DNA from: Clostridium sp. 1001275B_160808_H3
GTDB taxonomy: Bacteria; Bacillota; Clostridia; Clostridiales; Clostridiaceae
Reading direction: 5' to 3'
Assembly (NCBI RefSeq): GCF_015550425.1
Contig: NZ_JADNAT010000013.1
Location: 45,872-109,871, forward strand
DNA: 64,000 nt
Within the stretch, counting starts at the first letter, position 1. Each line of letters begins with the position of its first letter. Made by a program: the position numbers and the translations under genes. The notes beneath the pieces are model-generated. The model saw only the letters and a list, made by a program, of their open reading frames with translations, was not told the DNA's origin and made no database searches. This document shows, in pieces, positions 3,051 through 64,000 of the stretch.

Positions 3051-3344
3051 ATGGATAGGAATTATGTAATTGTGTGTAATAGACATAAGAGTATATATGG
3101 AGGTTTATTGTTCTGGGGACAAAAAACAGAAGATAAGGAGAAAAGAAGTTTCGGAGGATATACAGGAGATATCAATAAGTGTGAGAGATATACATTAGAA
3201 GAAGCTATGAATAATGGTTATAACTTTCCCTTATACGGAAAGAGCTGCAACCACGATAATTTTCAAAAATATGATGATTTTGTAATTGAGATAAGAAGGT
3301 TAGAAAGATTGGGATATAGACCTATTACTATATATGTTAGATAA
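3051..3344 (+). CDS. hypothetical phage protein
   Basis: A 97-residue protein of unknown function with a compact N-terminal block (YVIVCNRHKSIYGGLLFWG) and a basic C-terminus (IRRLERLGYRPITIYVR). It follows a 98-base gap and has an AAGGTGAG ribosome site. I recognise no family. Confidence 0.7.
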   Translation: MDRNYVIVCNRHKSIYGGLLFWGQKTEDKEKRSFGGYTGDINKCERYTLEEAMNNGYNFPLYGKSCNHDNFQKYDDFVIEIRRLERLGYRPITIYVR

Positions 3345-3689: not shown

Positions 3690-4356
3690 GAAACCAATAT
3701 TATTCAACACAGAAATGGTTAAGGCAATAATTGAAGGACGAAAGACAGTTACTAGAAGAATTATTAAGAAAACTAATAACAAAGACTTCATAGGATTTGT
3801 AACATGTTCAGTTCCTAAAGGGGATGAAGGTAAAGTTGCTTTTGGTAGGGGAAGTTTAGAAGATATAGGCAATGCAAATATAGATGAATATGTAAGACCA
3901 CCTTATAAAGTAGGAGATATTCTTTATGTAAGAGAAACATGGAAGAAGTACACAAAAAGAATAGGCAAAGGTGAAAATTGCAGAATAGCTGAATTTTATG
4001 GATATAAAGCAGATGAGGATAAGAGAGGTAATCCATCAGAGTTTTATGAAGGAAACTGGAAACCAAGTATTCATATGCCTAAAGAAGCAGCAAGAATATT
4101 TTTAAAGGTAACTAATGTAAGAGTAGAAAGGCTACAAGATATTACTACAGAAGAGACCTTAAAAGAAGGAGTAATTCAAAGATTCCCTAATGTTAATGAT
4201 AAATATACCCCAGATGTATTAAGAGGTGGATTTATAGGGTTATGGAACAGCACAATAAAAGATAGTGATTATAATAATTATTCTTATAAAGCCAATCCAT
4301 GGGTATGGGTAATAGAGTTTGAAAGAATAGAAAAGGAGATTGAGAATAATGTGTGA
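3682..4356 (+). CDS. ASCH-like domain phage protein
   Basis: The N-terminus (ILFNTEMVKAIIEGRKTVTRR) followed by YKVGDILYVRETW is the signature of the ASCH-like proteins common in phage early regions, whose fold relates to RNA-binding PUA domains. At 224 residues it is of usual length. The biochemical role is not known. The gene contains the protospacer of CRISPR spacer 11 (3791-3826). The ATG follows a GGGGG ribosome site and overlaps the resolvase gene. Confidence 0.8.
   Translation: MSEKPILFNTEMVKAIIEGRKTVTRRIIKKTNNKDFIGFVTCSVPKGDEGKVAFGRGSLEDIGNANIDEYVRPPYKVGDILYVRETWKKYTKRIGKGENCRIAEFYGYKADEDKRGNPSEFYEGNWKPSIHMPKEAARIFLKVTNVRVERLQDITTEETLKEGVIQRFPNVNDKYTPDVLRGGFIGLWNSTIKDSDYNNYSYKANPWVWVIEFERIEKEIENNV
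3791..3826 (+). other. protospacer matched by CRISPR spacer 11
   Basis: Spacer 11 (63649-63684) aligns here on the plus strand at 30 of 36 bases, with mismatches at spacer positions 5, 12, 14, 23, 26 and 32. Four of these (5, 14, 23 and 26) are codon third positions of the ASCH-like gene (5, 14, 23 and 26) or otherwise conservative. The three bases before it (3788-3790) are TCA. The codon-like divergence points to a spacer taken from a relative of this phage. Confidence 0.8.
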
Positions 4357-6775: not shown

Positions 6776-7141
6776 ATGTTTCTAATTGGTATAGGGGTAT
6801 GGGTAATAGCAGTCATATTAATAATTATGTTTTTAAAAGGAGCAAGTGAAAAGGAAAGCGTTGCATTATTAAAGCCTTTAGATATGGAAAAGTCTAGTCT
6901 AGATGTAACTTTACATGATGAAATGAGAAAGTCTTACGAGGAAGATGAAGAATTTCATGAAGCTGTAATGAAAAAAGATATTGATAATGCTATTGAGGAA
7001 TTTTGGGACAGTGTACAAACAAAACTTAACTGCATGAATATGATTGAAATACCAACGGATATGATCTATAGAGATTTGGACAAACATATAAAGAAGATGA
7101 ATGAAAGAGGTTATGTGTTTAAGGAGCAACTAAATGAGTAG
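6776..7141 (+). CDS. hypothetical phage protein with N-terminal membrane anchor
   Basis: Residues 1-20 (FLIGIGVWVIAVILIIMFL) form one membrane helix; the remaining 100 residues are acidic and probably cytoplasmic. No family is recognised. It carries the protospacer of CRISPR spacer 7, so related phages encountered by this lineage carry the same gene. It abuts the preceding gene and overlaps the next by 8 bases. Confidence 0.7.
   Translation: MFLIGIGVWVIAVILIIMFLKGASEKESVALLKPLDMEKSSLDVTLHDEMRKSYEEDEEFHEAVMKKDIDNAIEEFWDSVQTKLNCMNMIEIPTDMIYRDLDKHIKKMNERGYVFKEQLNE
6922..6957 (-). other. protospacer matched by CRISPR spacer 7
   Basis: Spacer 7 (63386-63421) matches the minus strand here at 31 of 36 bases. 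Mismatches fall at spacer positions 1, 6, 21, 24 and 25. The bases 5' of the protospacer on the minus strand read TCA (plus-strand TGA at 6958-6960). Position 6 is known to be flipped out and tolerant in type I Cascade targets. Confidence 0.8.
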
Positions 7142-8098: not shown

Positions 8099-8512
8099 AT
8101 GAAGAATACTGCAAAGAGAATAAAGAAATATAAAGAATTAAAAGCAGATATAGTTGATATAGATATAAAGCTACAAGAGTTAGAAGAGGATATGCTAGGA
8201 ATAACAGGAGCAGGATTAGAAGAAAGAACAGGAAAGACATATAAGATAACTTCTAGTGTAGAAACACAATCAGAGAAACACTTAGATAAAAAGGATAAGT
8301 TGTTAAGATTAAAAGCTAGTAAGGAAAGAGAAATAGCAAGAATAGATAATGCTTTAACTATATTAAAAGAAGAGGAAAGAGATATAGTAGAAACTGCATT
8401 GATAGAGCAAAAGAAATATGGATTATTAGAGATTAAATATAATAGGACATACTCCAGGATAAAACAGATTGAAGGAGAAGCAATAAAGAAGATGGAGAAG
8501 TATCTAGCATAG
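8099..8512 (+). CDS. ArpU/RinA-like late transcription regulator
   Basis: A 137-residue protein with an N-terminal coiled coil and a C-terminal sigma-like HTH (EERDIVETALIEQKKYGLLEIKYNRTYS), the layout of ArpU and sigma-70 region-4-like phage regulators. Its place at the end of the early genes and directly before the packaging module fits a role in switching on late transcription. The ATG follows GGAGGG. Just upstream is a 10-bp inverted pair (GAGTGGATC/TATGGTCCACTC, around 8058-8083) that could be a terminator or operator. Confidence 0.78.
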   Translation: MKNTAKRIKKYKELKADIVDIDIKLQELEEDMLGITGAGLEERTGKTYKITSSVETQSEKHLDKKDKLLRLKASKEREIARIDNALTILKEEERDIVETALIEQKKYGLLEIKYNRTYSRIKQIEGEAIKKMEKYLA

Positions 8513-17954: not shown

Positions 17955-20900
17955 TTGAGTGAATCTATAAGAAAAGTCAGTACGATATTTACAATAGATG
18001 ATAATGAACATAATAAAAAACTTAAGGAAATTAATTCTCAGTATAAATTAACTCAAAGTGAGATAAAACTTGCTGGAGAGAGAATGAATTCCTTTGGTAA
18101 AAATACTGATGATTTGAAATATAAGCAAGAAGCGTTAGCTAAGCAAACTGAAACTCTTAAGGATAAGATTAATTTATATAAAGATAGTATAGAAAAAGCA
18201 AGTAACAGAGCAGAAGAAAATAATAAGAAACTTCAAGAATTAAAAACTACTAAACAGAATTTACAGAAAGAATATAAAGAAGCTGTAAAACTGTATGGAG
18301 AAGAATCGGAGCAGGCTCAAAAATTAAAGGATCAATTAGATAAAGTCAATCAAGAATATACAGAGCAAAAAGCTGTAGTAGATAAAAATATTGCTAGTGT
18401 AAATAATCATAAAGTTAAGCTGAATGAAACAGAAGCACAATTATCTAAAGTTCAAGGAGAATTAAACAAAACTAGTTCTGAATTAGATAAACAAAATTCT
18501 AAATGGTTATCGGCAGGAGAAAGTCTTAAAAAAGCTGGAGATAATATATCTAGTTTTGGAGAAAAGGCTAGTAAGATAGGCGGAACTCTAACTAAGACAG
18601 TAACATTACCTATTGTAGCGATAGGAACTGCAGCGGTAAAAGCACAAATAGATTTTGAAAGTGCATTTGCTGGGGTAAAAAAGACAGTGGATGGAACAGA
18701 AGAGGATTTTAAAAAGCTTGAAAAAGGCATTAAAGATATGTCTAAAGAACTTCCTTCAAGTGCAGAGGATATTGCAAAAGTAGCTGAATCAGCAGGTCAA
18801 TTAGGAATTCAAACAGATAATATTTTAGGCTTCACAAGGACCATAATTGATTTAGGGAATGCAACTAACTTAGTTGGAGAAGAAGGAGCTAGTCAACTTG
18901 CTAAGTTTGCTAATATTACTCAAATGTCACAGAAAAACTTTGATAGATTAGGCTCTACTATAGTTGCTTTAGGAAATAACATGGCGACAACAGAAGCTGA
19001 TATAGTTTCTATGGCTATGAGATTAGCTGGAGCAGGAAAACAAGTAGGAATGACAGAATCTGATATTATGTCTTTTGCGGCTGCATTAAGTTCTGTAGGT
19101 ATTGAAGCAGAAGCAGGGGGAAGTGCTTTCTCCAAAGTAATGTTAGAAATACAAATGGCAATTCAAAGTGGTTCTGAATCTGTTGGCGATTTTGCTAAAG
19201 TTGCAGGAATGTCTACGCAAGAATTTGCAGATAAATTTAAAAATGATGCCACAGGAGCTTTAATAACTTTTATAGAAGGATTAGGAAAACTAGATAATAA
19301 AGCAGTAGTATTAGAAGATTTAGGATTTAGTGAAATAAGGGTTAGAGATGCACTTTTAAGAGCAAGTAGTGCAGGAGATTTATTTAATAAGTCTATTCAA
19401 ATTGGTAGTCAAGCATGGAAAGAAAATACAGCGTTAACTAATGAAGCTAGTCAAAGATATGCTACAACCGAAAGTCAAATTGCCATTTTAAAGAATGAAA
19501 TAGTAGATATGGCTAGAGAAATAGGAGTTGAGTTACTTCCTATAGTAAAAGATGGATTAGTAGTAGTAAAAGATTTAATAGAAAAATTTAATAATTTAAG
19601 TCCAGCTACAAAAGAAAATATAATTAAATTTGCTGGATTAGCAGCGGTGATTGGCCCGGTAGTTGGAACAGTAGGAAAGTTAGCACAAGGTTTTGGAAGT
19701 GTTTTAAAAGTAGCTGGAAAGTTTTCAACAGGTTTAGGAGCTGCAGAAGTGGCGACCGCGGGAGTTGGAACTGCAGCAGCAACGGCAGGAGGAACTGCAG
19801 GAGTAGCAGGATTAGCAACATCTTTAGGTGGAGTTGTAGTTGCAGCAGCGCCTTATGTATTAGCAGGAGCAGCAATAGCAGGAGCAGGATATGCTATCTA
19901 TAAAGGACTTAATGAAGAAGTTATTCCAGAGGTTGACCTTTTCGCAGATAAAATAGAATATGCAGCACAAACAATGGACGCTAGTGGTACCTATATGGCT
20001 AATGGAGCACAAGCTACTGTTACTAAAATAAGTGAAGCAACTAAAACTGCAGTAGGAGCATATGTAGAACTAGATGATAGTGCAAAAAATGAAATGCAAA
20101 GTTTATATGTAAATTCTACTGTTATTTCTGAACAAATAAAAACTGATATGACTACAAAATTTGGAGAAATGGCAAGTCAAGTAGTTGCAGGATATGAAAA
20201 ACAAAAGACTGATAGTGTAGCAGAGTTACAAGAAATGTTTAATACTCAAAGCACTTTAACTGCAGAAGAACAAGCTAATATTATTGCTAAAACAGGAACA
20301 TTCTATGAAGATAGAAAAACTCAGACACAAAACTATGAAAATAGCATTAATCAAATAATGAATAAAGCTAGTCAAGAAAAGAGAGCTTTAACAACAGAAG
20401 AAACACAACAAATAACTGCATTGCAAAATATGATGAGAGAAAATGCAGTAAAAGCATTAAGCGATAATGAAGTAGAAGCACAAGTAATATTACAAAGAAT
20501 GAAGGATTATGATGGTAGAGTAACAGCAGAACAAGCAGCACAACATATATCAAAATTGAATGAAAGTAGAGATAATGCAGTAAGGATTGCTAATGATGAG
20601 TATGAAAAGAAGATCGCTACAATAACAAGATTAAGAGATGAATCTAAATCTATTAGTTCTGATCAAGCTGATAAAATGATTGCTGATGCTAAAAGACAAA
20701 GAGATGGAGTAGTAGAAAAGGCGGAAGATACTAGATTGAGCGCTATAGATAAAATGCGAAAAATGAATAAGGATTTAGATAGAGAAGTTAATACCCAATC
20801 TGGTACTGTTTTAACTACTTGGGACAAAATAAAAAGATGGTGGAGTGGATGGCAACCAGAAACTAAAGAATTAAAAACAGTAAGTTATACTGAAAGAATG

Positions 20901-21233
20901 TCTGGAAATAGAATCGGTAATGCTTTAGGTACTTCTTACTTCCAAGGTGGAATGACAGAAATTAATGAAAAAGGATATGAAGTAATAGAATTGCCAAGAG
21001 GAAGCAAAGTTAAAAATCATTTACAATCAGAAAATATGATTAAAGATACTGCTATTCAAACTGCAAAGGCTATAGCGGGAGTAATTAATAATGATAGTTC
21101 CAATAATATAGAATTACATGTTTATTTAGGAGATAAAGAGATTATAGATAAAACTACTAAACAAGTAGTTAAATCTGTAGGAAGAAGTACAAATAATTAT
21201 AGAAAAGGAAAAGGAGGTTTAGCTTTTGGATAA
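17955..21233 (+). CDS. tail tape measure protein (TP901 family)
   Basis: A 1092-residue tape measure protein that sets tail length and is ejected during infection. Residues 1-190 are coiled coil. The TP901-type core follows (KAQIDFESAFAGVKKTVDGT, MSKELPSSAEDIAKVAES). A glycine/alanine-rich hydrophobic stretch spans about residues 550-650 and further coiled coils follow. The TTG start lies behind AAGGAGGTGG. The gene contains the protospacers of CRISPR spacers 1 and 2. Confidence 0.96.
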   Translation: MSESIRKVSTIFTIDDNEHNKKLKEINSQYKLTQSEIKLAGERMNSFGKNTDDLKYKQEALAKQTETLKDKINLYKDSIEKASNRAEENNKKLQELKTTKQNLQKEYKEAVKLYGEESEQAQKLKDQLDKVNQEYTEQKAVVDKNIASVNNHKVKLNETEAQLSKVQGELNKTSSELDKQNSKWLSAGESLKKAGDNISSFGEKASKIGGTLTKTVTLPIVAIGTAAVKAQIDFESAFAGVKKTVDGTEEDFKKLEKGIKDMSKELPSSAEDIAKVAESAGQLGIQTDNILGFTRTIIDLGNATNLVGEEGASQLAKFANITQMSQKNFDRLGSTIVALGNNMATTEADIVSMAMRLAGAGKQVGMTESDIMSFAAALSSVGIEAEAGGSAFSKVMLEIQMAIQSGSESVGDFAKVAGMSTQEFADKFKNDATGALITFIEGLGKLDNKAVVLEDLGFSEIRVRDALLRASSAGDLFNKSIQIGSQAWKENTALTNEASQRYATTESQIAILKNEIVDMAREIGVELLPIVKDGLVVVKDLIEKFNNLSPATKENIIKFAGLAAVIGPVVGTVGKLAQGFGSVLKVAGKFSTGLGAAEVATAGVGTAAATAGGTAGVAGLATSLGGVVVAAAPYVLAGAAIAGAGYAIYKGLNEEVIPEVDLFADKIEYAAQTMDASGTYMANGAQATVTKISEATKTAVGAYVELDDSAKNEMQSLYVNSTVISEQIKTDMTTKFGEMASQVVAGYEKQKTDSVAELQEMFNTQSTLTAEEQANIIAKTGTFYEDRKTQTQNYENSINQIMNKASQEKRALTTEETQQITALQNMMRENAVKALSDNEVEAQVILQRMKDYDGRVTAEQAAQHISKLNESRDNAVRIANDEYEKKIATITRLRDESKSISSDQADKMIADAKRQRDGVVEKAEDTRLSAIDKMRKMNKDLDREVNTQSGTVLTTWDKIKRWWSGWQPETKELKTVSYTERMSGNRIGNALGTSYFQGGMTEINEKGYEVIELPRGSKVKNHLQSENMIKDTAIQTAKAIAGVINNDSSNNIELHVYLGDKEIIDKTTKQVVKSVGRSTNNYRKGKGGLAFG
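19878..19912 (-). other. protospacer matched by CRISPR spacer 1 (34 of 35 bases)
   Basis: Spacer 1 (62996-63030) is identical to the minus strand here except at spacer position 21 (plus-strand 19892, T in the phage against C expected). The difference is a silent Tyr codon change. The first 20 positions, including the whole seed, match. On the minus strand the protospacer is preceded by TCA (plus-strand TGA at 19913-19915). Confidence 0.95.
20095..20128 (-). other. protospacer matched by CRISPR spacer 2
   Basis: Spacer 2 (63061-63094) matches the minus strand at 30 of 34 bases, with mismatches at spacer positions 12, 18, 20 and 21 and a perfect seed. It is preceded by TCA on the minus strand (plus-strand TGA at 20129-20131). 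It encodes nearly the same peptide (QSLYVNSTVIS in the phage, Ile for Val in the spacer source). Confidence 0.88.
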
Positions 21234-28266: not shown

Positions 28267-29166
28267 ATGTCGTTAATTCAAAGATTAATAAGTCCAGATA
28301 AATATAGTATAAAGTGTCCATATTCAATGGCACCAAAGGGGATTTGTATTCATAATACTGCAAATGATGCAACTGCATCAAATGAAGTAGCTTATATGCA
28401 ATCAAATAACAATGAAGTATCATTCCACATTGCAATAGATGATGTGGAAGCTATTCAAGGAATACCTTTCAATCGTAACACTTGGCATGCAGGAGATGGA
28501 GGAAGTGGAGAAGGAAATAGAAATTATATATCTATTGAAATTTGTTATTCAAAATCTGGCGGATTGAAATTTATAAACGCTGAGAAAAGAGCAGCTAAAG
28601 AAGTAGCAGCATTATTAAAACAATATGGATGGACAATAAATAATGTAAAGAAACATAGAGATTTTAGCAATAAATATTGCCCCCATTTGACATTGGATTT
28701 AGGTTGGCAAAGATTTTTAAATATGATCCAAGCTGAATTAAATACATCCAACCAAACAGGAGATCTGTTTAGAGTAAGAAAGAGTTGGGATAATGCATTA
28801 ACACAGATAGGCGCATTTACTAATTTAGATAATGCTAAAAAGTTAGTAGATATGAAAGAAGGATTCTTTGTATTTAATAGTAAAGGAGAAAAAATATATC
28901 CAATAGATAAAGTCGTTGAAAAAACTAATAAACAATATGTTAAATTAAAATATGCTAGTTCATGGAGAATTTATCCTGAAAATGTAGCATTAGTGACAGG
29001 AAATGAAAAAGGATTTTTAAATCCAAGAGATTACGGTGATAATGGAATTTTAACATATGAAATATTAAGTAGGCCACAAGCAAATGCAGTAACAATTCAA
29101 ACTAGAGATTTTGGACGTGGGGTTGTATATCTTCCACCTGGAGATAATGAATGGGAAATAGTATAG
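28267..29166 (+). CDS. endolysin: N-acetylmuramoyl-L-alanine amidase
   Basis: The N-terminal half is an Amidase_2 (PGRP-like) zinc amidase: GICIHNTANDATAS, VSFHIAIDDVEAIQGIPF, TWHAGDGGSG and KKHRDFSNKYCPH supply the zinc ligands and catalytic residues. The C-terminal 130 residues hold a wall-binding region with an SPOR-like element (FRVRKSWDNALTQIGAFTNL). Length is 299. It cuts the amide bond between muramic acid and the stem peptide to release progeny. Confidence 0.94.
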   Translation: MSLIQRLISPDKYSIKCPYSMAPKGICIHNTANDATASNEVAYMQSNNNEVSFHIAIDDVEAIQGIPFNRNTWHAGDGGSGEGNRNYISIEICYSKSGGLKFINAEKRAAKEVAALLKQYGWTINNVKKHRDFSNKYCPHLTLDLGWQRFLNMIQAELNTSNQTGDLFRVRKSWDNALTQIGAFTNLDNAKKLVDMKEGFFVFNSKGEKIYPIDKVVEKTNKQYVKLKYASSWRIYPENVALVTGNEKGFLNPRDYGDNGILTYEILSRPQANAVTIQTRDFGRGVVYLPPGDNEWEIV

Positions 29167-29183
29167 AATGAATAGATAATTTT

Positions 29184-29228
29184 AAAAGGCTAGTAGGTAG
29201 GAGCAATTTTACTTACTAGCCTTTTTTT
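29184..29228 (+). terminator. strong terminator ending the late operon
   Basis: Stem AAAGGCTAGTAGGTA/ACTTACTAGCCTTT with loop rich in A/T, followed by seven T. It separates the lysis module from the accessory genes. Confidence 0.88.
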
Positions 29229-29279
29229 ATTTGTCGAAAAATAAATTACGATTAAAAGTAAAAATGTTTATAAAAAGTA

Positions 29280-29353: not shown

Positions 29354-29674
29354 ATGGTAGAATTAAAGGGTAGTGAAAAACAAGTTAGTTGGGCAAATGA
29401 TATCAGAGAGGTAGTTTTAAAAGGTGCTAAAAAGTTAGTAGAAATTAGAGCAGAAGAACATGAAGAAAGAGGAAAGAAAAGAACTTTAAGAATGTTAGAG
29501 GAAGCTAAAGAAGCGCTTAACAAAATTGAAGAAGAAGAAAGTTCAAAATACTTCATAGATAACTTTAGTTATATACTAAGAAACATGAAAGATTATGAAA
29601 TAGAAGCAGAAGTAAGCAATGTAGATTTAGAATTAATAATAGCTTATAAAATGAAAGATGAATTAGGACTATAA
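29354..29674 (+). CDS. small charged accessory protein; candidate anti-CRISPR
   Basis: A 106-residue acidic helical protein (starting MVELKGSEKQVSWANDI, then a long charged helix). Proteins beginning with a GSEKQ-W motif occur in other phages and mobile elements, with no function I know of. It lies alone after the late terminator, under the operator-containing promoter, and is followed by an HTH gene. That arrangement resembles acr-aca loci. The anti-CRISPR role is a hypothesis that rests on context and on the self-targeting spacer. Confidence 0.7.
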   Translation: MVELKGSEKQVSWANDIREVVLKGAKKLVEIRAEEHEERGKKRTLRMLEEAKEALNKIEEEESSKYFIDNFSYILRNMKDYEIEAEVSNVDLELIIAYKMKDELGL

Positions 29675-29735: not shown

Positions 29736-30185
29736 ATGAGTGATTTAGTTGGAGTTAGATGGGGAGATTTAAAAAAAGAAACTAAAGAGTTTTTGTTAAT
29801 GAACTCGACTATTTGGGATAATGTAAAAGAGGGAGAATGTATATATGATTTAACTGAAGATTTAGCTATATCAGGATATGTTAAGTGTATAAGTAAAGAC
29901 AAAGGAGACTATGAATATATAATTGATGATGATGCTATAATATATGATCCTAGCGAGGGAGTTATTTTAGAAACTAAAGAAAAGGTTAAATTTGTAGTAG
30001 ATGAAGTTATGACAGTTAATGAAGCAGCTGAAATATGGGGAAAGACAGAAGGTGCTATAAGAGCAGCAATAAAAGCTAAGAAGTTCATACCAGGAGTGGA
30101 TTATAGAAAAGCTGGAAGAATAACTCTTATAACTAAAGAAGCTATGGAGCGAGTTTATGGAGAAGGAATATGGCACAAGGAGTAA
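29736..30185 (+). CDS. HTH-containing protein; candidate Aca-like regulator
   Basis: The N-terminal 85 residues are acidic and unassigned. The C-terminal 55 carry an excisionase/MerR-like HTH: TVNEAAEIWGKTEGAIRAAI, then a basic loop and ITKEAMERVYG. It is the second gene after the palindromic promoter at 29280-29308 and is a good candidate for the protein binding that palindrome. It overlaps the following AP2 gene by 16 bases. A plain phage regulator without link to CRISPR is equally possible. Confidence 0.75.
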   Translation: MSDLVGVRWGDLKKETKEFLLMNSTIWDNVKEGECIYDLTEDLAISGYVKCISKDKGDYEYIIDDDAIIYDPSEGVILETKEKVKFVVDEVMTVNEAAEIWGKTEGAIRAAIKAKKFIPGVDYRKAGRITLITKEAMERVYGEGIWHKE

Positions 30186-30832
30186 AAAGAAATTTAATTG
30201 GAAGTAAATTTAATATGTTAACTATAATAGATAGTGAGTTTAGAAATAAAAAGACTTACTATCTATGCAAATGTGAATGTGGTAATGAAAAGTGGATTAG
30301 AGCAGATAGCGTTACATCTGAAAAACAAAAGAGTTGTGGTTGCTTATCTAAGAAAAAACAATTTAAGCATAAAGACCTTACAGGAAATAAAATTGGAAGA
30401 TTAACAGTTTTAGAAGAGGTAAATAAGAAAGTCGAGAAATATTATTATAAATGTAAATGTGATTGTGGAAATATCAAAGTAATTGAAGCAGATCTATTAA
30501 CAACAGAAAAAACTAAATCATGTGGGTGTCTTGGAACTGAAAACGCACTGAATAAGCAAAAAATAGCACTTGGGAAATATCGAGAAAAATACTTACTTGA
30601 AGGTACTAGTTTAGCAAATATATCTAGAGAAAAGCCGATTAAATCAAATACTAGCGGGATAACAGGAGTTACTTGGGATAAAAGTAAAGGGAAATGGATG
30701 GCTCAAATAGTATTTAAAGGGAAAAGCTACTACTTAGGAAGATACGAGAATAAAGAAGATGCAGTAAAAGCGAGAAAAGAAGCAGAGGAAAAATTGCATA
30801 AAGAATTTTTAAGAAAATTAGAAGAAAAATAG
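30170..30832 (+). CDS. AP2-domain DNA-binding protein with duplicated zinc motifs
   Basis: Two similar N-terminal units each contain CKCxCG and a CGC motif (CKCECGNEKW..SCGCLS near residues 31-58 and CKCDCGNIKV..SCGCLG near 93-121). The C-terminal part is an AP2 domain: SGITGVTWDKSKGKWMAQI and YYLGRYENKEDAVKARKEAE. Such proteins resemble phage homing endonucleases that kept the DNA-binding parts, but no nuclease motif (HNH or GIY-YIG) is visible here, so this copy may only bind DNA. Confidence 0.85.
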   Translation: MAQGVKRNLIGSKFNMLTIIDSEFRNKKTYYLCKCECGNEKWIRADSVTSEKQKSCGCLSKKKQFKHKDLTGNKIGRLTVLEEVNKKVEKYYYKCKCDCGNIKVIEADLLTTEKTKSCGCLGTENALNKQKIALGKYREKYLLEGTSLANISREKPIKSNTSGITGVTWDKSKGKWMAQIVFKGKSYYLGRYENKEDAVKARKEAEEKLHKEFLRKLEEK

Positions 30833-30919
30833 AAAATAAAAAGGCAGTAACCGAAGCTACCACCTAAGCGCAAATTAAGTATAGCATATGTTACTTCCTT
30901 AATTCAAGGAGGAATTGAA

Positions 30920-31117
30920 ATGTTAAAGGAAAAAGAAATAATGGACCTATTAAAAAAATCTTTAGAAAAGTATGTATTACATTTAATTAATAATAGCTTA
31001 GACTACATTGTTCATGAAGGGGAAATAAAAGCATATATAAATGTATTGAATAGAGAAGATTTAAAGATTAGATATTTATCATTAGATAAGGCTAAAGAGT
31101 TATTAAATAAATTATAG
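30920..31117 (+). CDS. small hypothetical phage protein (65 aa)
   Basis: A mixed-charge helical protein starting MLKEKEIMDLLKKSLEKYV behind AAGGAGG. It has no recognisable domain. It is the last rightward gene of the post-lysis group and is followed by a terminator. As a small accessory gene it is a secondary candidate for a host-interaction protein. Confidence 0.65.
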   Translation: MLKEKEIMDLLKKSLEKYVLHLINNSLDYIVHEGEIKAYINVLNREDLKIRYLSLDKAKELLNKL

Positions 31118-31977: not shown

Positions 31978-32121
31978 ATGGCAAGAAAGATTACTATTAG
32001 TTTTAAGGAAACAACAAAGGATATAGAGTTATATAGTTATTTAGTATCTCTTGAAGATAAATCTACTGAGATAAAAGATTTAATTAGAAAAGCACTTAAA
32101 AATATGGAGGAGAAAAAGTGA
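31978..32121 (+). CDS. small ribbon-helix-helix-like mobilization accessory protein (47 aa)
   Basis: ATG 31978 lies behind AAAGGAG. The protein starts MARKITISFKETTKDIELY, a beta strand typical of RHH proteins, followed by two helices (DKSTEIKDLIRKALKN). It overlaps the next gene by four bases (GTGA). Its place before a coupling protein and relaxase suggests a relaxosome or autoregulatory role, by analogy with plasmid mobilization operons. Confidence 0.65.
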   Translation: MARKITISFKETTKDIELYSYLVSLEDKSTEIKDLIRKALKNMEEKK

Positions 32122-32438
32122 AGGTTTATTATATAAACAAAGAATTAAATATTGTTATTAGTTTAGATAAACTTAATAAATTATCTCCTAATACAAGGCT
32201 AGTTATGGATTATAAAGGGAGAGAGATTGCTTATAGTGTAAATGATATTTATAAATGTAGAGATTGGAAGGTATGCACGATAGATGATTATAGCTTAAAC
32301 CTAGATGATATTAGAGAACTTATGAAGAGAGTAGATAAAGATAGCGAAGTATATAATAAATTATTAAAAGAAGAGCAGGACTTATTAAATATATTGGTAG
32401 AAGATAAAACTATAGAATTAGAAAGGAGTTTATTCTAA
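32118..32438 (+). CDS. hypothetical protein of the mobilization operon
   Basis: A 106-residue protein with a GTG start overlapping the RHH gene and a stop overlapping the coupling protein start, so it is firmly part of the operon. The N-terminal part is beta-rich (VYYINKELNIVISLDKL) and the end is helical and acidic. No family is recognised. Confidence 0.7.
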   Translation: MKVYYINKELNIVISLDKLNKLSPNTRLVMDYKGREIAYSVNDIYKCRDWKVCTIDDYSLNLDDIRELMKRVDKDSEVYNKLLKEEQDLLNILVEDKTIELERSLF

Positions 32439-34012
32439 TGATAGCAGAGTTAGGATTAGCGACACAATTCTTGTACTATAGTTTAGGCTTAATAGCAACA
32501 GGAGGAGCATATTCTTCATTAAAAAAACATCTTAATAAACAAGATAAATTAGCTAATAATGATATAAAAAACTATAAAGAATTAAATAATATTATTGGCG
32601 AAGATGGATTAAAAATATCTAAAAATATAAGTCTGAAAGAAAAAATAGATTATGAGGGAATATGTTTAATAGGACCAACTGGAGCAGGTAAAACTACATC
32701 ATTATTCTTAAATAATTTACTAGATAATAAATTAAGAGGTAGCTTGATTGTCACAGATCCAAAAGGAGAATTGTATAATCTCACTAGTGGATATCAAAAG
32801 AATATTTGTAAAAGAAAGGTTTATAAGATAGATTTCTCCAATACTGATTATAGTGAAAGATATAATTTATTAGCTAATTGTGAGAATTCAGAGGAAGTTA
32901 TACAACTAGCAAGTAACTTACTATTAAATGGAGCGTTATCAGTAGAATTAGCAAGCGGAAAGAAAACAGGAGGAGTAGAATGGATTCAAATGGCCGAGCC
33001 TTTACTTGCAGCAGTATTACTCTATGTAAAAGATTTAGAGAAACCATTTAATACAATAGAATTTGCATTACAATTAATCCTCAACCTTAATAATGGACAA
33101 CTTAAAGGTTTAATAGATAAATCTAAAAATATAGATGCCATAACTCAATATGATATATTCCTTATGGTAGGTGGAGCAGATAGAACAGAGGGAAGTATTA
33201 AGATAACTTTAGCAAGTAATATGAAGTTGTTTACTACTAAGGATGTCAATAAGATATCAATTAATACCACATTCAATATAGAGGATTTTAGGAAAGAGGA
33301 ATCAATTTTATATGTAATATATCCTGAAAGAAAAAGTGTATATTTAGCGCCTTTTATAGCACCTTTATTTTCACAATTAATAGATAAGCTTATAGATAGT
33401 TATAATAATAAAAGCATACCTATACGCCTTTTATTTGACGAATTTGGGAATATAGGAATGCTTTCTAATATGAGTATCAATGCTGCTACTGTAAGAAGTA
33501 GAAAAATGAGTATAACTACTTGTGTTCAAAGTATTACTCAACTGTATCAAGTATATGGAGAGCATAGCAGTAAATCTATACTAAATAACTTGAAAACAAA
33601 GATTGTACTTCCTGGAATAACAGATGTTGATACAATAAATTATATTTCTAGTCTATGCGGAGTAACAGAAATTAATACTAAAAGCACAAGTTATTCAGAA
33701 CAAAAACAAAGCACCAGCTACTCTAAGACAAAGAAAAAGATATTTGAAGATGGAGAATTAAGAACACTAGAAGATAATACCGCTTTAATAGTAGTTAATA
33801 ATAAGATGCCAGTAATAGATGAAATATCATTGTATTTTGAAACGGAATTAAAAGAAAATGTTATAGAAGAAGTTAAATATAAAAAAATCTCTACAAATAT
33901 ATATAACCTTAAGAAAGAGATAGATAGAATAAAATCACTTAGCAATGAGCAGGAGTTAGAAGATGACAACGCAAGACGAACTTTACGACAAATATTTAAA
34001 GAAGAAAGCTAA
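32438..34012 (+). CDS. VirD4/TraG-type type IV coupling protein
   Basis: The 524-residue protein has a Walker A GPTGAGKTTS near residue 80, VTDPKGELYNLTSGYQ after it, and a Walker B LLFDEFGNIGML near residue 330, followed by ATVRSRKMSITTCVQSITQL, all diagnostic of VirD4/TraD coupling ATPases. Near the N-terminus only one clear membrane segment (LYYSLGLIATGGAYSSL) is seen. Coupling proteins dock a relaxosome to a type IV secretion channel. No secretion genes are visible, so it would depend on a helper element. It overlaps the relaxase gene by 50 bases. Confidence 0.9.
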   Translation: MIAELGLATQFLYYSLGLIATGGAYSSLKKHLNKQDKLANNDIKNYKELNNIIGEDGLKISKNISLKEKIDYEGICLIGPTGAGKTTSLFLNNLLDNKLRGSLIVTDPKGELYNLTSGYQKNICKRKVYKIDFSNTDYSERYNLLANCENSEEVIQLASNLLLNGALSVELASGKKTGGVEWIQMAEPLLAAVLLYVKDLEKPFNTIEFALQLILNLNNGQLKGLIDKSKNIDAITQYDIFLMVGGADRTEGSIKITLASNMKLFTTKDVNKISINTTFNIEDFRKEESILYVIYPERKSVYLAPFIAPLFSQLIDKLIDSYNNKSIPIRLLFDEFGNIGMLSNMSINAATVRSRKMSITTCVQSITQLYQVYGEHSSKSILNNLKTKIVLPGITDVDTINYISSLCGVTEINTKSTSYSEQKQSTSYSKTKKKIFEDGELRTLEDNTALIVVNNKMPVIDEISLYFETELKENVIEEVKYKKISTNIYNLKKEIDRIKSLSNEQELEDDNARRTLRQIFKEES

Positions 34013-34928
34013 TAGGCGTTACAGTTCTGATGCTAGATTTTTTACAGTATTTAGAGTTGGAGAAAAATTTAAAAATAATCCTAATGCTGATTCAATATCT
34101 ATAGATGGATTGGCTAAGTTTGAAAGGCATAACAATAGAAAAGGGAAAGTGCCTAATGCAGATCCTAAAAAGAAACATCTAAATCAAATTCTTATAGGAA
34201 ATGAAAATGTAGAAGAAACTGTTAAGATGTATTTAGAAGGTGTTAAAATAAGAGATAATTCTGTTATTGCAAGAGAAATTATATTAAGTGCTGGAAATGG
34301 ATTTTGGGAAAGGTTAAGTGATACAGATAGGCAAAGATGGATAGATACTAATATGAAATTCTTAAAAGATAACTTTGGAGATAATTGTGTATATGCTGTT
34401 TTACACATGGATGAAACTACTCCACATATCCATGCCTTAATAGTACCAGTTTTCTATAATGAAAAAAGAAGAATATCTACACTTAATAATAGTTTTTACT
34501 TTGGAGATAAAGAAAAGCTTAGTGCATGGCAAGATAAATACACTAACACCTTAACAGATAATTTTGAAAATGTATTTAAGAGAGGTATTCGAGGAAGTAA
34601 AGCTACCCATGTAGATTTAAAGACTTACTATGCACTTATAAAGGAGAATTTAAATGAATTAAATGCAGATGTTATATTGGCTAATGCTAAAGAGAATTTT
34701 ATAAATAAGAAGAAAATAGAAGAGCTCCATGATACTCTAGAAAATAAAGAAGATGAACTAAAGTTAGCAGAAGAAATGGTTAAGAAAAATAAAGAGTTAA
34801 AAGAAGATAAAAAGCTATATGAATATGTAATAAGGAACTTAGCAACTAAATACAATATTCCAGAAGTTGAGGTCTATAAGATTATAAAAAATAAAGATAA
34901 TGGCAAGAATATAGAGAGGGAAAGATAA
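33963..34928 (+). CDS. MobV (Pre/Mob) family relaxase
   Basis: The conserved MobV motif I is visible as KFERHNNRKGKVPNADPKKK (about residues 50-69), and the HUH metal motif as LHMDETTPHIHALIVPV (about residues 147-163). The C-terminal 100 residues are coiled coil. It should nick its oriT and lead a single strand into a recipient. The length of 321 residues is a little shorter than plasmid MobM proteins. A complete relaxase inside a prophage is unusual. A terminator follows at 34913-34944. Confidence 0.9.
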   Translation: MTTQDELYDKYLKKKANRRYSSDARFFTVFRVGEKFKNNPNADSISIDGLAKFERHNNRKGKVPNADPKKKHLNQILIGNENVEETVKMYLEGVKIRDNSVIAREIILSAGNGFWERLSDTDRQRWIDTNMKFLKDNFGDNCVYAVLHMDETTPHIHALIVPVFYNEKRRISTLNNSFYFGDKEKLSAWQDKYTNTLTDNFENVFKRGIRGSKATHVDLKTYYALIKENLNELNADVILANAKENFINKKKIEELHDTLENKEDELKLAEEMVKKNKELKEDKKLYEYVIRNLATKYNIPEVEVYKIIKNKDNGKNIERER

Positions 34929-35795: not shown

Positions 35796-36074
35796 AATAT
35801 CAAAGTAATTGCATGGTAGATTAAAAGCTTTGCAGATTTTATGTTTATTTACCTCACTAATAGGTAGCATATATTTTTCATATTTCATAATTGAAGAATA
35901 ACCAATACCAACAAATTTACTAAATTTATATTTATTTAATCCATTTAACATTCTTAACTTATAAATTTTCTGAGAAATCGTGGCTTCTGGAAGGTCTTTG
36001 TATTGCTCGCTTACTGAGTTTTCTAAGTCAGAGAATACTTTATCAAAAGTTGCAGTTTTGTTGACCTTGAACAT
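35781..36074 (-). CDS. HTH (XRE-like) protein at the right prophage end
   Basis: The 97-residue product has a C-terminal XRE-like HTH: KIYKLRMLNGLNKYKFSKFV, GIGYSSIMKYEKYML and an INKHKI-type helix, then a short tail. The N-terminal 35 residues are unassigned. Its start lies 10 bases from the remaining oxidoreductase frame, so it is the last phage gene before the right junction. A role in excision or lysogeny control is possible from position. Confidence 0.75.
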   Translation of the reverse strand: MFKVNKTATFDKVFSDLENSVSEQYKDLPEATISQKIYKLRMLNGLNKYKFSKFVGIGYSSIMKYEKYMLPISEVNKHKICKAFNLPCNYFDIKNNE

Positions 36075-36083
36075 GCTAAACTT

Positions 36084-36569
36084 ATGACTACGTACTATCC
36101 ATTGAAGAAACTAAGAAAAATTAAAGGATTAGAAAATGCAAAATATGTAGATCCATATGCAGGTAGTAAAGGAAATTCAATAAGATATTTATCAGTTGCG
36201 CCAAGAACTAATGATCTAAAAGTAAAAGGCGTAGATAATTTATTTTGTGCAGGTGAAAAATCTGGTCTTTTTGTTGGGCATACAGAAGCAATATGTACTG
36301 GTAGCCTAGCTGGGCATAATGCTGTAAGGCTTGCAATGGGAATACCTCTATTAATTCTACCAGGATCAATAGCTATAGGGGATATAATATCTTATGCAAA
36401 TGAAAAAGCAGGAACAAGAGAAGGTAGAAAAAATAGATATACATTTGCAGGAGCAGAATACTTTAAACGAATGAAAGAATTAGGATTGTATACTGTTGAT
36501 AGAGAGGAAATAAAAGATAGAATTAAAAAGGTTAATTTAGATAAAGTATTTGATCAAAAATTAATATAG
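36084..36569 (+). pseudogene. 3' part of an FAD-dependent oxidoreductase gene interrupted by the prophage
   Basis: The 161 residues (TTYYPLKKLRKIKGLENAKY, then VENLF-type FCAGEKSGLFVGHTEAICTG and YTFAGAEYFKRMKELGLYT) match the C-terminal part of GidA/TrmFO-like FAD-dependent oxidoreductases of about 400-470 residues. The N-terminal FAD-binding part with its GxGxxG motif is missing. The same frame is open for at least eight codons upstream of the ATG. The prophage ends within about 20 bases, so the gene is most likely split by integration, with its 5' part beyond the left prophage end. Confidence 0.8.
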
Positions 36570-62558: not shown

Positions 62559-62749
62559 CAAATATCACTCCTTGTAATGTTTACCTTACATTTCTAATTT
62601 AGCATTTCTTTAGGTGAGTGTCAAGCTAACCTTACATAAAATGTGTGGAAAGTAGTAACAATTTTTATATGATTTAGTATTATATTCATTTGAATAAATT
62701 ATAAATAGACTTATTATTCAGATTGTAAAGGTGGTCGCGTTACGCGACC
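62559..62749. promoter_or_regulatory. regulatory region of the XRE-def operon and a GC-rich palindrome
   Basis: Two direct copies of ACCTTACAT lie in the first 80 bases and may be operator sites for the XRE protein. At 62733-62749 stands GGTCGCGTTACGCGACC, a perfect GC-rich palindrome in very AT-rich DNA. It could be a terminator-like stop between the operon promoter and the CRISPR leader, or a binding site. Confidence 0.5.
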
Positions 62750-62965
62750 CCCTTGATATTATTTGGAGTGTTAAAAAACATATTAAGTATTTTTACCAAG
62801 TTATTATTTCATGAAGTATTTGAAAAATAAGTTATATTGCCAGTTTAGGCTGTCATTTATATAAAGTTTCTTTAATTTAAGCAAGGTTGGTAAAAAGTCT
62901 GGAAAGTGAGGTATTTACAAAGATTCCTTAGGATTGTATAATTTATGAAAGGCTTAAAATCAATG
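62750..62965 (+). promoter_or_regulatory. CRISPR leader
   Basis: About 215 AT-rich bases directly before the first repeat, with no gene. I place the leader here because the repeat 3' end ATGTATTTAAAT is the spacer-proximal side in clostridial I-B arrays, because spacers closest to this end match the prophage best, and because all four matched protospacers have the same PAM in this orientation. Confidence 0.7.
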
Positions 62966-63911
62966 GATTAACATTAACATGAGATGTATTTAAATTTAAG
63001 TCCTTTATAGATAGCGTATCCTGCTCCTGCGATTAACATTAACATGAGATGTATTTAAATGAAATAACAGTTGAATTAATGTATAAACTTTGCAGATTAA
63101 CATTAACATGAGATGTATTTAAATGTAGTTTCATAAGCTATTTCATTTCCATCTAGTAAGATTAACATTAACATGAGATGTATTTAAATTCATATTGTTT
63201 ATTAAAATAATCCTTACACATTTGGATTAACATTAACATGAGATGTATTTAAATTAGTGATTGAATGGACTTATCTTTCTTTTAATTGGGATTAACATTA
63301 ACATGAGATGTATTTAAATGTTATCTCTATATCTGTACTTTTAATTTCGTTTTCTGATTAACATTAACATGAGATGTATTTAAATAGAAACTCTTCATCT
63401 TCCTCATAGCACTTTCTCATTGATTAACATTAACATGAGATGTATTTAAATTTATTTTTAACCCCTCTTTCTTAATTCGCGATAATAGATTAACATTAAC
63501 ATGAGATGTATTTAAATTTGGTTCTGAATTAATTGATACATTGCCAATTATAGGATTAACATTAACATGAGATGTATTTAAATTGACTTCCCCTTGCTCT
63601 ATTGTGCCTTATTGTAGAGATTAACATTAACATGAGATGTATTTAAATTAGGTTTTGTATCCTGTTCAGTACCAAAAGGCGATGGATTAACATTAACATG
63701 AGATGTATTTAAATGTTAGTAATACAAATTCCTTTTTACAAGTTTTACATGATTAACATTAACATGAGATGTATTTAAATGTTATTAATCTTGTAATTTC
63801 ATTATAGGCCATAGATGATTAACATTAACATGAGATGTATTTAAATTAATCTTTAGCTTTAGCAGGTAATACTTTATCCCCGATTAACATTAACATGAGA
63901 TGTATTTAAAT
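62966..63911 (+). CRISPR. CRISPR array, 15 repeats and 14 spacers, type I-B-like
   Basis: Fifteen repeats of 30 bases, all identical by eye, begin GATTAACATTAACATGAG and end ATGTATTTAAAT. Repeats start at 62966, 63031, 63095, 63160, 63225, 63290, 63356, 63422, 63488, 63554, 63619, 63685, 63751, 63817 and 63882. Spacers are 34-36 bases. The last repeat is followed by unrelated sequence. The repeat resembles clostridial type I-B repeats. Spacers 1, 2, 7 and 11 match the prophage in this window, each with TCA as PAM. No cas gene is visible in the window, so the array relies on cas genes elsewhere or is orphaned. Confidence 0.97.
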
Positions 63912-64000
63912 AAGTACGCAATATGAGTTGGCTTGATTGCGATGTTGAGTTAAAAAAATAGCATATATATAAGCATTTACAAGTGGTTTAAACTTGGTTA
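63912..64000. other. sequence after the last CRISPR repeat
   Basis: Eighty-nine bases with no further repeat or degenerate copy and no gene start that I can support. Confidence 0.5.

Follow-up and report, generated by a model that had tools for sequence, protein, structure and literature searches.

The analyzed window, a stretch of 64,000 nucleotides from contig NZ_JADNAT010000013.1 of Clostridium sp. 1001275B_160808_H3, carries a prophage in its left part and a CRISPR array at its right edge. About 43 kb of a single assembled contig separate the two loci, and the phage-host junction is present. The array (62966..63911, plus strand) comprises 15 perfect, identical 30-bp repeats and 14 spacers of 34-36 nt. 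It has the characteristics of clostridial type I-B arrays, that is, a 30-bp repeat ending in TTTAAAT, spacers in the range of 34-37 nt, and a conserved leader. The leader (62701..62965, plus strand) is 83% identical in positions 62701-62960 to the leader of array 1 of C. tertium DSM 2485, its local alignment score being 301 with C. tertium leader 1 vs 26 with leader 2. Judging from the sequences, the window array is the counterpart of array 1 in the type I-B locus of C. tertium DSM 2485, with which it shares the repeat, the leader and the neighboring genes (a deformylase gene and an HTH gene), a related prophage being present in that strain as well.

The orientation of the array is supported by the likeness of its leader to C. 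tertium leader 1 (83%), by the imperfect repeats at the opposite end of C. tertium array 1, and by data on C. pasteurianum, where, according to the available part of the source, spacers follow TAAAT and TTTCA functions as a PAM (PMC4860712). The Rfam family CRISPR-DR3 matches all 15 repeats on the minus strand, contrary to the orientation derived from the leader, the distal repeats and C. pasteurianum.

Spacer 1 (62996..63030, plus strand, 35 nt) adjoins the leader and is thus the newest one; it lies between perfect repeats 62966-62995 and 63031-63060. The sequence-only reading had described it as the minus strand of the tape measure gene with a single silent difference, and had proposed aligning all spacers as a check. 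Each of the 14 spacers was scored against the rest of the window, the array itself excepted, and the match stands: spacer 1 is identical to its protospacer (19878..19912, minus strand) in 34 of 35 positions, with the PAM TTCA at 19913-19916 (minus strand). The sole mismatch falls on spacer position 21 (plus-strand base 19892), where the codons TAT and TAC both encode Tyr, so it is indeed silent, and the 20 bases on the PAM side (positions 1-20) are identical, as had been claimed. The best ungapped match in the window was 26 both for 560 shuffled spacers and for 14 reversed ones, hence a near-perfect match of 34/35 is well above chance.

Three further spacers also match the prophage. Spacer 2 (63061..63094, plus strand) agrees in 30 of 34 positions with 20095..20128 on the minus strand (mismatches in positions 12, 18, 20 and 21; PAM TTCA at 20129-20132), and spacer 7 (63386..63421, plus strand) agrees in 31 of 36 positions with 6922..6957 on the minus strand (mismatches in positions 1, 6, 21, 24 and 25; PAM TTCA at 6958-6961). 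Spacer 11 (63649..63684, plus strand) matches 3791..3826 on the plus strand in 30 of 36 positions, with TTCA at 3787-3790. Protospacers 1 and 2 both lie in the tape measure gene (17955..21233, plus strand; PF10145, E 4.8e-24). The best window match of the remaining ten spacers is 25, within the null range.

The motif TTCA is immediately 5' of all four targets. It occupies 0.69% of prophage positions on both strands, and the probability of finding it at 4/4 targets by chance is 2.3e-9, which argues that TTCA is the array's own PAM and is not merely borrowed from other systems. Recognition of TCA by clostridial type I-B systems, assumed in the sequence-only reading, is thus backed both by the 4/4 window targets and by published work. 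In the accessible parts of the respective papers, C. pasteurianum is reported to reject plasmids bearing a TTTCA target (PMC4860712), and in C. difficile TCA lowers conjugation about 50-fold, a weaker interference than that of CCN (PMC8406132). The four window targets independently agree with these published data. Among 13 codon differences between spacers and targets, nine are silent and four change the amino acid, a silent excess as expected if the spacers derive from relatives of the window prophage.

Spacer 11 is identical (36/36) to a segment of the C. tertium DSM 2485 prophage (8200-8235 of viral contig L059), where the PAM position is occupied by TTTA instead of TTCA, as expected of PAM escape. 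Spacer 12 (63715..63750, plus strand) has no match of at least 80% within the window and matches the C. tertium DSM 2485 prophage in 33 of 36 positions, with TTCA. These relations of spacers 11 and 12 to the C. tertium prophage support an arms race. TTCA accompanies only one of the nine matches of at least 80% in relatives, the other eight having another motif (these rows are not independent). No exact copies of spacers 1 (with position 21 set to R), 2 and 7 were found in viral contigs, and the only exact match of spacer 11 there is the same C. tertium prophage. The comparison of the array with 50,697 phage records yielded no convincing match (best E 0.02). Likewise, none of the 99 spacers parsed from loci L002, L003, L005, L006 and L007 (L008 was left out, and L009 gave none) matches the window prophage or the other targets at 80% or more.

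The prophage genes extend from the left edge of the window to position 29166 and encode a DnaC-like loader, terminase, portal, protease, capsid, tail, holin and amidase proteins, the lysis module ending with the amidase (endolysin) gene (28267..29166, plus strand; phrog_3088, E 1.1e-71). No integrase was found among the prophage proteins scanned (a subset of open reading frames), and the integrated element therefore likely continues leftward. In the comparison of prophage DNA (10000-31300) with phages, only 55 bases of a terminase gene matched. Genes for a VirD4-like coupling protein and a MobV relaxase (32438..34928, plus strand; MobV scoring above the family cut-off, the VirD4-like family below it) are situated past the phage late genes and before the right junction, so that the prophage is fused or adjacent to a mobilizable element. 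The right junction, at about 36068, cuts a gene which we take to encode a FAD-dependent oxidoreductase, only the C-terminal part of which remains in the window (36068..36569, plus strand). This gene is whole (426 aa) in C. tertium and in genome G002, matches over 424 residues in genomes G005 and G006, and is cut in genome G007 at nearly the same place as in the window. Insertion of the C. tertium prophage into the same gene was ruled out, the C. tertium copy being whole.

At its distal end the array is cut by the end of a transposable element (63918..64000, plus strand; the start is uncertain by about 3 bases), which begins about 8 bases past the last repeat and of which the window contains about 80 bases, the whole post-repeat tail being 89 bases long. 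This terminus is matched in 20 of the 68 genus genomes at E<=0.01, in nine of them below 1e-7, with up to four matches per genome and several genomes having multiple copies; some matches are near contig ends. The nearest relatives, C. tertium DSM 2485 (G001) and MAG.206 (G004), showed no match to it. A larger copy in genome G018 encodes two tyrosine integrases and a DUF6262 protein, presumably the arrangement of Tn554, and a larger copy in G044 encodes an IS91 Y2 transposase and an integrase. Hence the window tail is a conserved terminus common to transposase- or integrase-bearing copies, Tn554-like or IS91-like as far as can be read from the genes of these other copies. Aligned with the C. 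tertium DSM 2485 locus, the transposon end interrupts the array on the side where that strain keeps its cas operon. Since contig breaks in G017, G060 and G044 fall about 70 to 140 bases into this terminus, the right edge of the window may be a contig end too. A Cas3 search, of whose 3,961 hits the best 120 were listed, showed none on a 109,871-base contig, the apparent length of the source contig; we give this result no weight, as the 137-kb contig of DSM 2485 is missing from the list too and the database is incomplete.

Other readings of the tail were set aside. Its weak likeness to the flank of C. tertium array 1, the DNA preceding cas6 (1/200 shuffles; 0.8-1.0% of 996 genome segments and 1-2% of 97 low-GC segments), was discarded, as the transposon matches are far stronger. 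A terminator-like hairpin in the tail folds no better than shuffled sequences. Rfam produced no match on the transposon loci, and the plasmid comparison produced none for window positions 40000-64000. In genome G011 (L091, about 2036-2151 and 3113-3149), ends of the same transposon family are located on both sides of the deformylase gene, which in the window's relatives neighbors the CRISPR locus.

The closest relatives examined are C. tertium DSM 2485, with host stretches 88-91% identical to the window, and MAG.206 (88-95%). The locus of C. tertium DSM 2485 has the order deformylase, leader, array 1, cas6-8b-7-5-3-1-2, array 2, followed by what we take to be MarR and ABC genes. Arrays 1 and 2 have one common repeat and one orientation, the gap between array 1 and cas6 being about 550 bases. 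NCBIfam gave names to five of the seven Cas proteins, Cas8b scoring just below its cut-off (103.9 vs 104.05), and cas7 and cas2 were assigned by position. The reading frames of all seven genes are open, with no internal stops. A cas4 frame beside this otherwise open operon (L021, 5985-6236) stops early, at 83 aa. No match to the seven Cas proteins was found in the 64-kb window, whose last 89 bases follow the final repeat.

MAG.206 shares the deformylase gene and the leader, has an array of four repeats that directly adjoins the MarR and ABC genes, and thus represents a cas-less version of the C. tertium DSM 2485 locus. Its post-array DNA aligns with the DNA following C. tertium array 2 with a score of 342 (the best of 200 shuffles being 47), and with that following array 1 with a score of 32. 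No Cas3, Cas8b or Cas1 was found in this metagenome-assembled genome of unstated completeness. From the comparison of L022/L023 (C36, about 32059-32280) with L004/L021, the entire cas operon appears to be missing from MAG.206 through recombination of one array with the other, the simplest reading given that the C. tertium arrays have one repeat and one orientation. Among the eight genomes with the exact window repeat, a Cas3 relative is present in three and a Cas1 in five, and Cas8b relatives occur in 11 of the 68 genus genomes. In the accessible portions of the publications, C. tertium strains HGMC01 (PMC12641198) and WC0709 (PMC10952124) are reported to have no cas genes.

None of the 25 parsed spacers of DSM 2485 matches at 80% its C10 prophage or the L035 part of a second related prophage. 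The count of 25 leaves out one double-length interval of array 1, and L035 was assigned to this strain by way of L059, a UViG that shares its genome number and is identical to C10. The contrast between 4/14 window spacers matching the own prophage and 0/25 in DSM 2485 fits both leading explanations discussed below.

The phage amidase gene is followed by g106, g149, an AP2-domain gene and g65, in this order, and then by a gene on the opposite strand. The first one, g106 (29354..29674, plus strand), encodes a small protein (phrog_6775, unknown function) that is a candidate anti-CRISPR by position; a 64% identical protein is encoded in L034, there also just before a g149 relative, and weak relatives of unknown function occur in C. 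difficile phages (best E 5e-7). The product of g149 (29736..30185, plus strand) is an HTH protein with an acidic N-terminal half (PF20038; phrog_2655, annotated as excisionase), with 161 relatives among 200 candidates. Its predicted model is modest (pLDDT 70), with weak structural matches, mostly to HTH proteins, and the single weak match given by PADLOC on ten proteins is that of the HTH part of g149 to mad1. The AP2-domain protein (30170..30832, plus strand; PF00847, at its cut-off), a marker for clostridial acr loci, is 48-50% identical to AP2 proteins encoded downstream of endolysin genes in C. difficile phages CD1801, phiCD418 and JD033. Finally, g65 (30920..31117, plus strand) encodes a small protein predicted to form three helices (AlphaFold pLDDT 95), again a candidate anti-CRISPR by position. 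It has relatives in 34 protein clusters, every host name shown for them being Clostridium, and was found in none of the 68 genus genomes (in a search run without a positive control). Neither g65 nor g149 has a significant fold match in PDB. A g65 relative, P0146 (65 aa), is named Cas10-associated in one source; its length falls far below that of Cas10, and the name is probably mistaken.

The window segments 29167-29232 and 30833-30920 are conserved with the C. tertium prophage (91% and 83%, respectively) and flank different small genes in the two, resembling a variable cargo slot. The C10 prophage of DSM 2485 has no match to g149, the AP2 gene or g65, and no significant one to g106. An AP2 gene together with small genes directly after the lysis module, the mark of such loci, is thus observed in the window. 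A close parallel is found in C. difficile phage phiCD38-2, where, in the available passages of the source, acrIB2 immediately follows the lysis genes, is transcribed in their direction and precedes an oppositely transcribed region; AP2-domain genes in other phages led to acrIB2, phiCD38-2 itself being described there as having no AP2 gene (PMC10732046). The window cluster resembles this locus in its post-lysis position, the small neighboring genes and the AP2 gene seen in some of the phages (PMC10732046), and differs in that none of its proteins was found to resemble a known anti-CRISPR, so its genes are candidates only. In particular, the cluster has no NCBIfam match above the cut-off; with AcrIB2 the comparison was one of composition. 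Acidic and aromatic (F, W, Y) residues make up 33-36% of the product of the gene after AP2 in C. difficile phages, and 40-41% of that of the gene before AP2 in two of them, vs 53% reported for AcrIB2 in the part of the paper available (PMC10732046); hence the identification of JD033_49-type genes as AcrIB2 is not supported by composition. Many phages encode AP2 proteins (1,120 records matched), and AP2 relatives occur in four of the 68 genomes, two of these with Cas8b, which is too few to show linkage. A tentative and rather doubtful proposal is that the AP2-marked cluster is an anti-defense slot of clostridial phages and encodes a novel type I-B anti-CRISPR, for which g65, g106 and the N-terminal half of g149 are the likeliest candidates; it would shield the prophage under four matching spacers with unchanged PAMs.

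Prophage-directed self-targeting has been described before in other bacteria (PMC6990116, PMC11406979, both in the parts available). In the sources partially covered by our limited search on C. tertium, CRISPR and prophages, the present case is not reported. As far as the accessible text of the review goes, type I self-targeting likewise pairs a spacer with a prophage of its own chromosome, the PAM and seed being of a working type, and the known ways out of it are a change of the target or PAM, loss of cas genes, or an anti-CRISPR (PMC6990116). Compared with the cases described there, the window has four spacers against one prophage and an array cut by a transposon on its cas-facing side. In PA14 the leader-end spacer, spacer 1 of CRISPR2, likewise matches an integrated phage, DMS3; that system, in the available description, is of type I-F, has five mismatches and was studied experimentally, while the window has a C. 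tertium-type I-B array with one mismatch, known from its sequence (PMC11406979). The type I-B locus of C. tertium DSM 2485 differs from the window in having open interference genes, two arrays, and 0/25 parsed spacers against its own related prophages at 80%.

The sequence-only reading held that a cell carrying both spacer 1 and its target should not survive, so that either the CRISPR system is off or the prophage blocks it. The first statement proved too strong, as tolerance of chromosomal targeting is documented (PMC6990116), TCA is weaker than CCN (PMC8406132), both according to the parts of the sources available, and a mixed population is possible. The two alternatives still lead, each now having its own anatomy, namely the transposon end on the cas-facing side of the array and the cas-less sister locus for the former, and the AP2-marked candidate cluster for the latter. 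We favor, with a probability of roughly one half, the explanation that the self-targeting array and the prophage coexist because the type I-B cas genes were lost or cut off in this lineage. The array would have been filled from relatives of the window prophage while the system worked, consistent with 9/13 silent codon differences; interference may then have been lost, by transposon damage or by a deletion as in MAG.206, and the prophage, or a lineage carrying it, would have been tolerated, the array being a memory without an executioner. This reading is favored by the cut on the cas side, the cas-less sister locus, the two published cas-less C. tertium genomes and the four tolerated targets with PAMs; the 0/25 spacers of DSM 2485, with its open cas operon, against its own related prophages are also counted for it, as are the three Cas3-bearing and five Cas1-bearing genomes of the eight with the exact repeat. 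Against it, the identity of all 15 repeats and the conserved leader imply that any loss would be recent, and the best match belongs to the newest spacer, which suggests that adaptation was active until lately. Also against it, the 550 bases or so between C. tertium array 1 and cas6 mean that an insertion into the array need not harm the operon, an open operon exists at this locus in C. tertium DSM 2485, and the window ends about 80 bases into the transposon, so that cas genes may lie beyond; the transposon end has no match in G001 and G004.

An intact cas operon beyond the transposon, blocked by an anti-CRISPR from the post-lysis cluster, is in our view the strongest rival, if an unlikely one. 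The succession of amidase, g106, g149, AP2 and g65 before an opposite-strand gene is in the same place as acrIB2 in phiCD38-2 (PMC10732046, available part), the AP2 protein has its 48-50% identical counterparts downstream of endolysin genes in three C. difficile phages, and the C10 prophage, which no DSM 2485 spacer matches at 80%, has no match to g149, AP2 or g65. Moreover, all four window targets keep TTCA vs another motif in eight of nine matches in relatives (rows not independent). However, no candidate resembles a known Acr by NCBIfam, PDB fold or composition, g149 may simply be an excisionase-like regulator, and the AP2 marker is absent from phiCD38-2 and common in phages; besides, g65 was not found in the 68 genomes in the search without a positive control, and the AP2-Cas8b co-occurrence (2/4) is too sparse to show linkage. 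It is improbable that the contig merges cells, spacer 1 coming from prophage-free cells or the prophage from cells free of spacer 1: the distance of about 43 kb is beyond short-read linkage, and spacer 1 is at the leader end, the most variable part of an array, but farther into the array the older, weaker matches of spacers 7 and 11 show a history shared with the prophage, and the sequence runs without a break across the phage-host junction at 36068. Slightly less probable still is that cas genes are present and targeting is tolerated, the mismatch in position 21, the moderate PAM, low expression or repair keeping the damage sublethal. According to the available parts of the papers, TCA interference is weaker than that of CCN in C. 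difficile (PMC8406132), Haloferax survives chromosomal type I-B targeting (PMC6990116), and a spacer with five mismatches to DMS3 is present in PA14 lysogens (PMC11406979). On the other hand, the 20 PAM-side bases of spacer 1 are perfect, and in the same partial sources C. pasteurianum rejects TTTCA-target plasmids (PMC4860712), viable counts of C. difficile fell by four orders of magnitude under self-targeting (PMC10732046), and evolved PA14 lysogens lost or mutated spacers or cas genes (PMC11406979).

Self-targeting spacers flag sites where CRISPR immunity broke or was beaten. The present case offers a clean comparison of three states of one locus, with open cas genes and no self-match of at least 80% in DSM 2485, the operon apparently cut out in MAG.206, and four matches, a transposon and a candidate cluster in the window. 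It also yields a PAM (TTCA) for the C. tertium-type system and candidate genes that are short.
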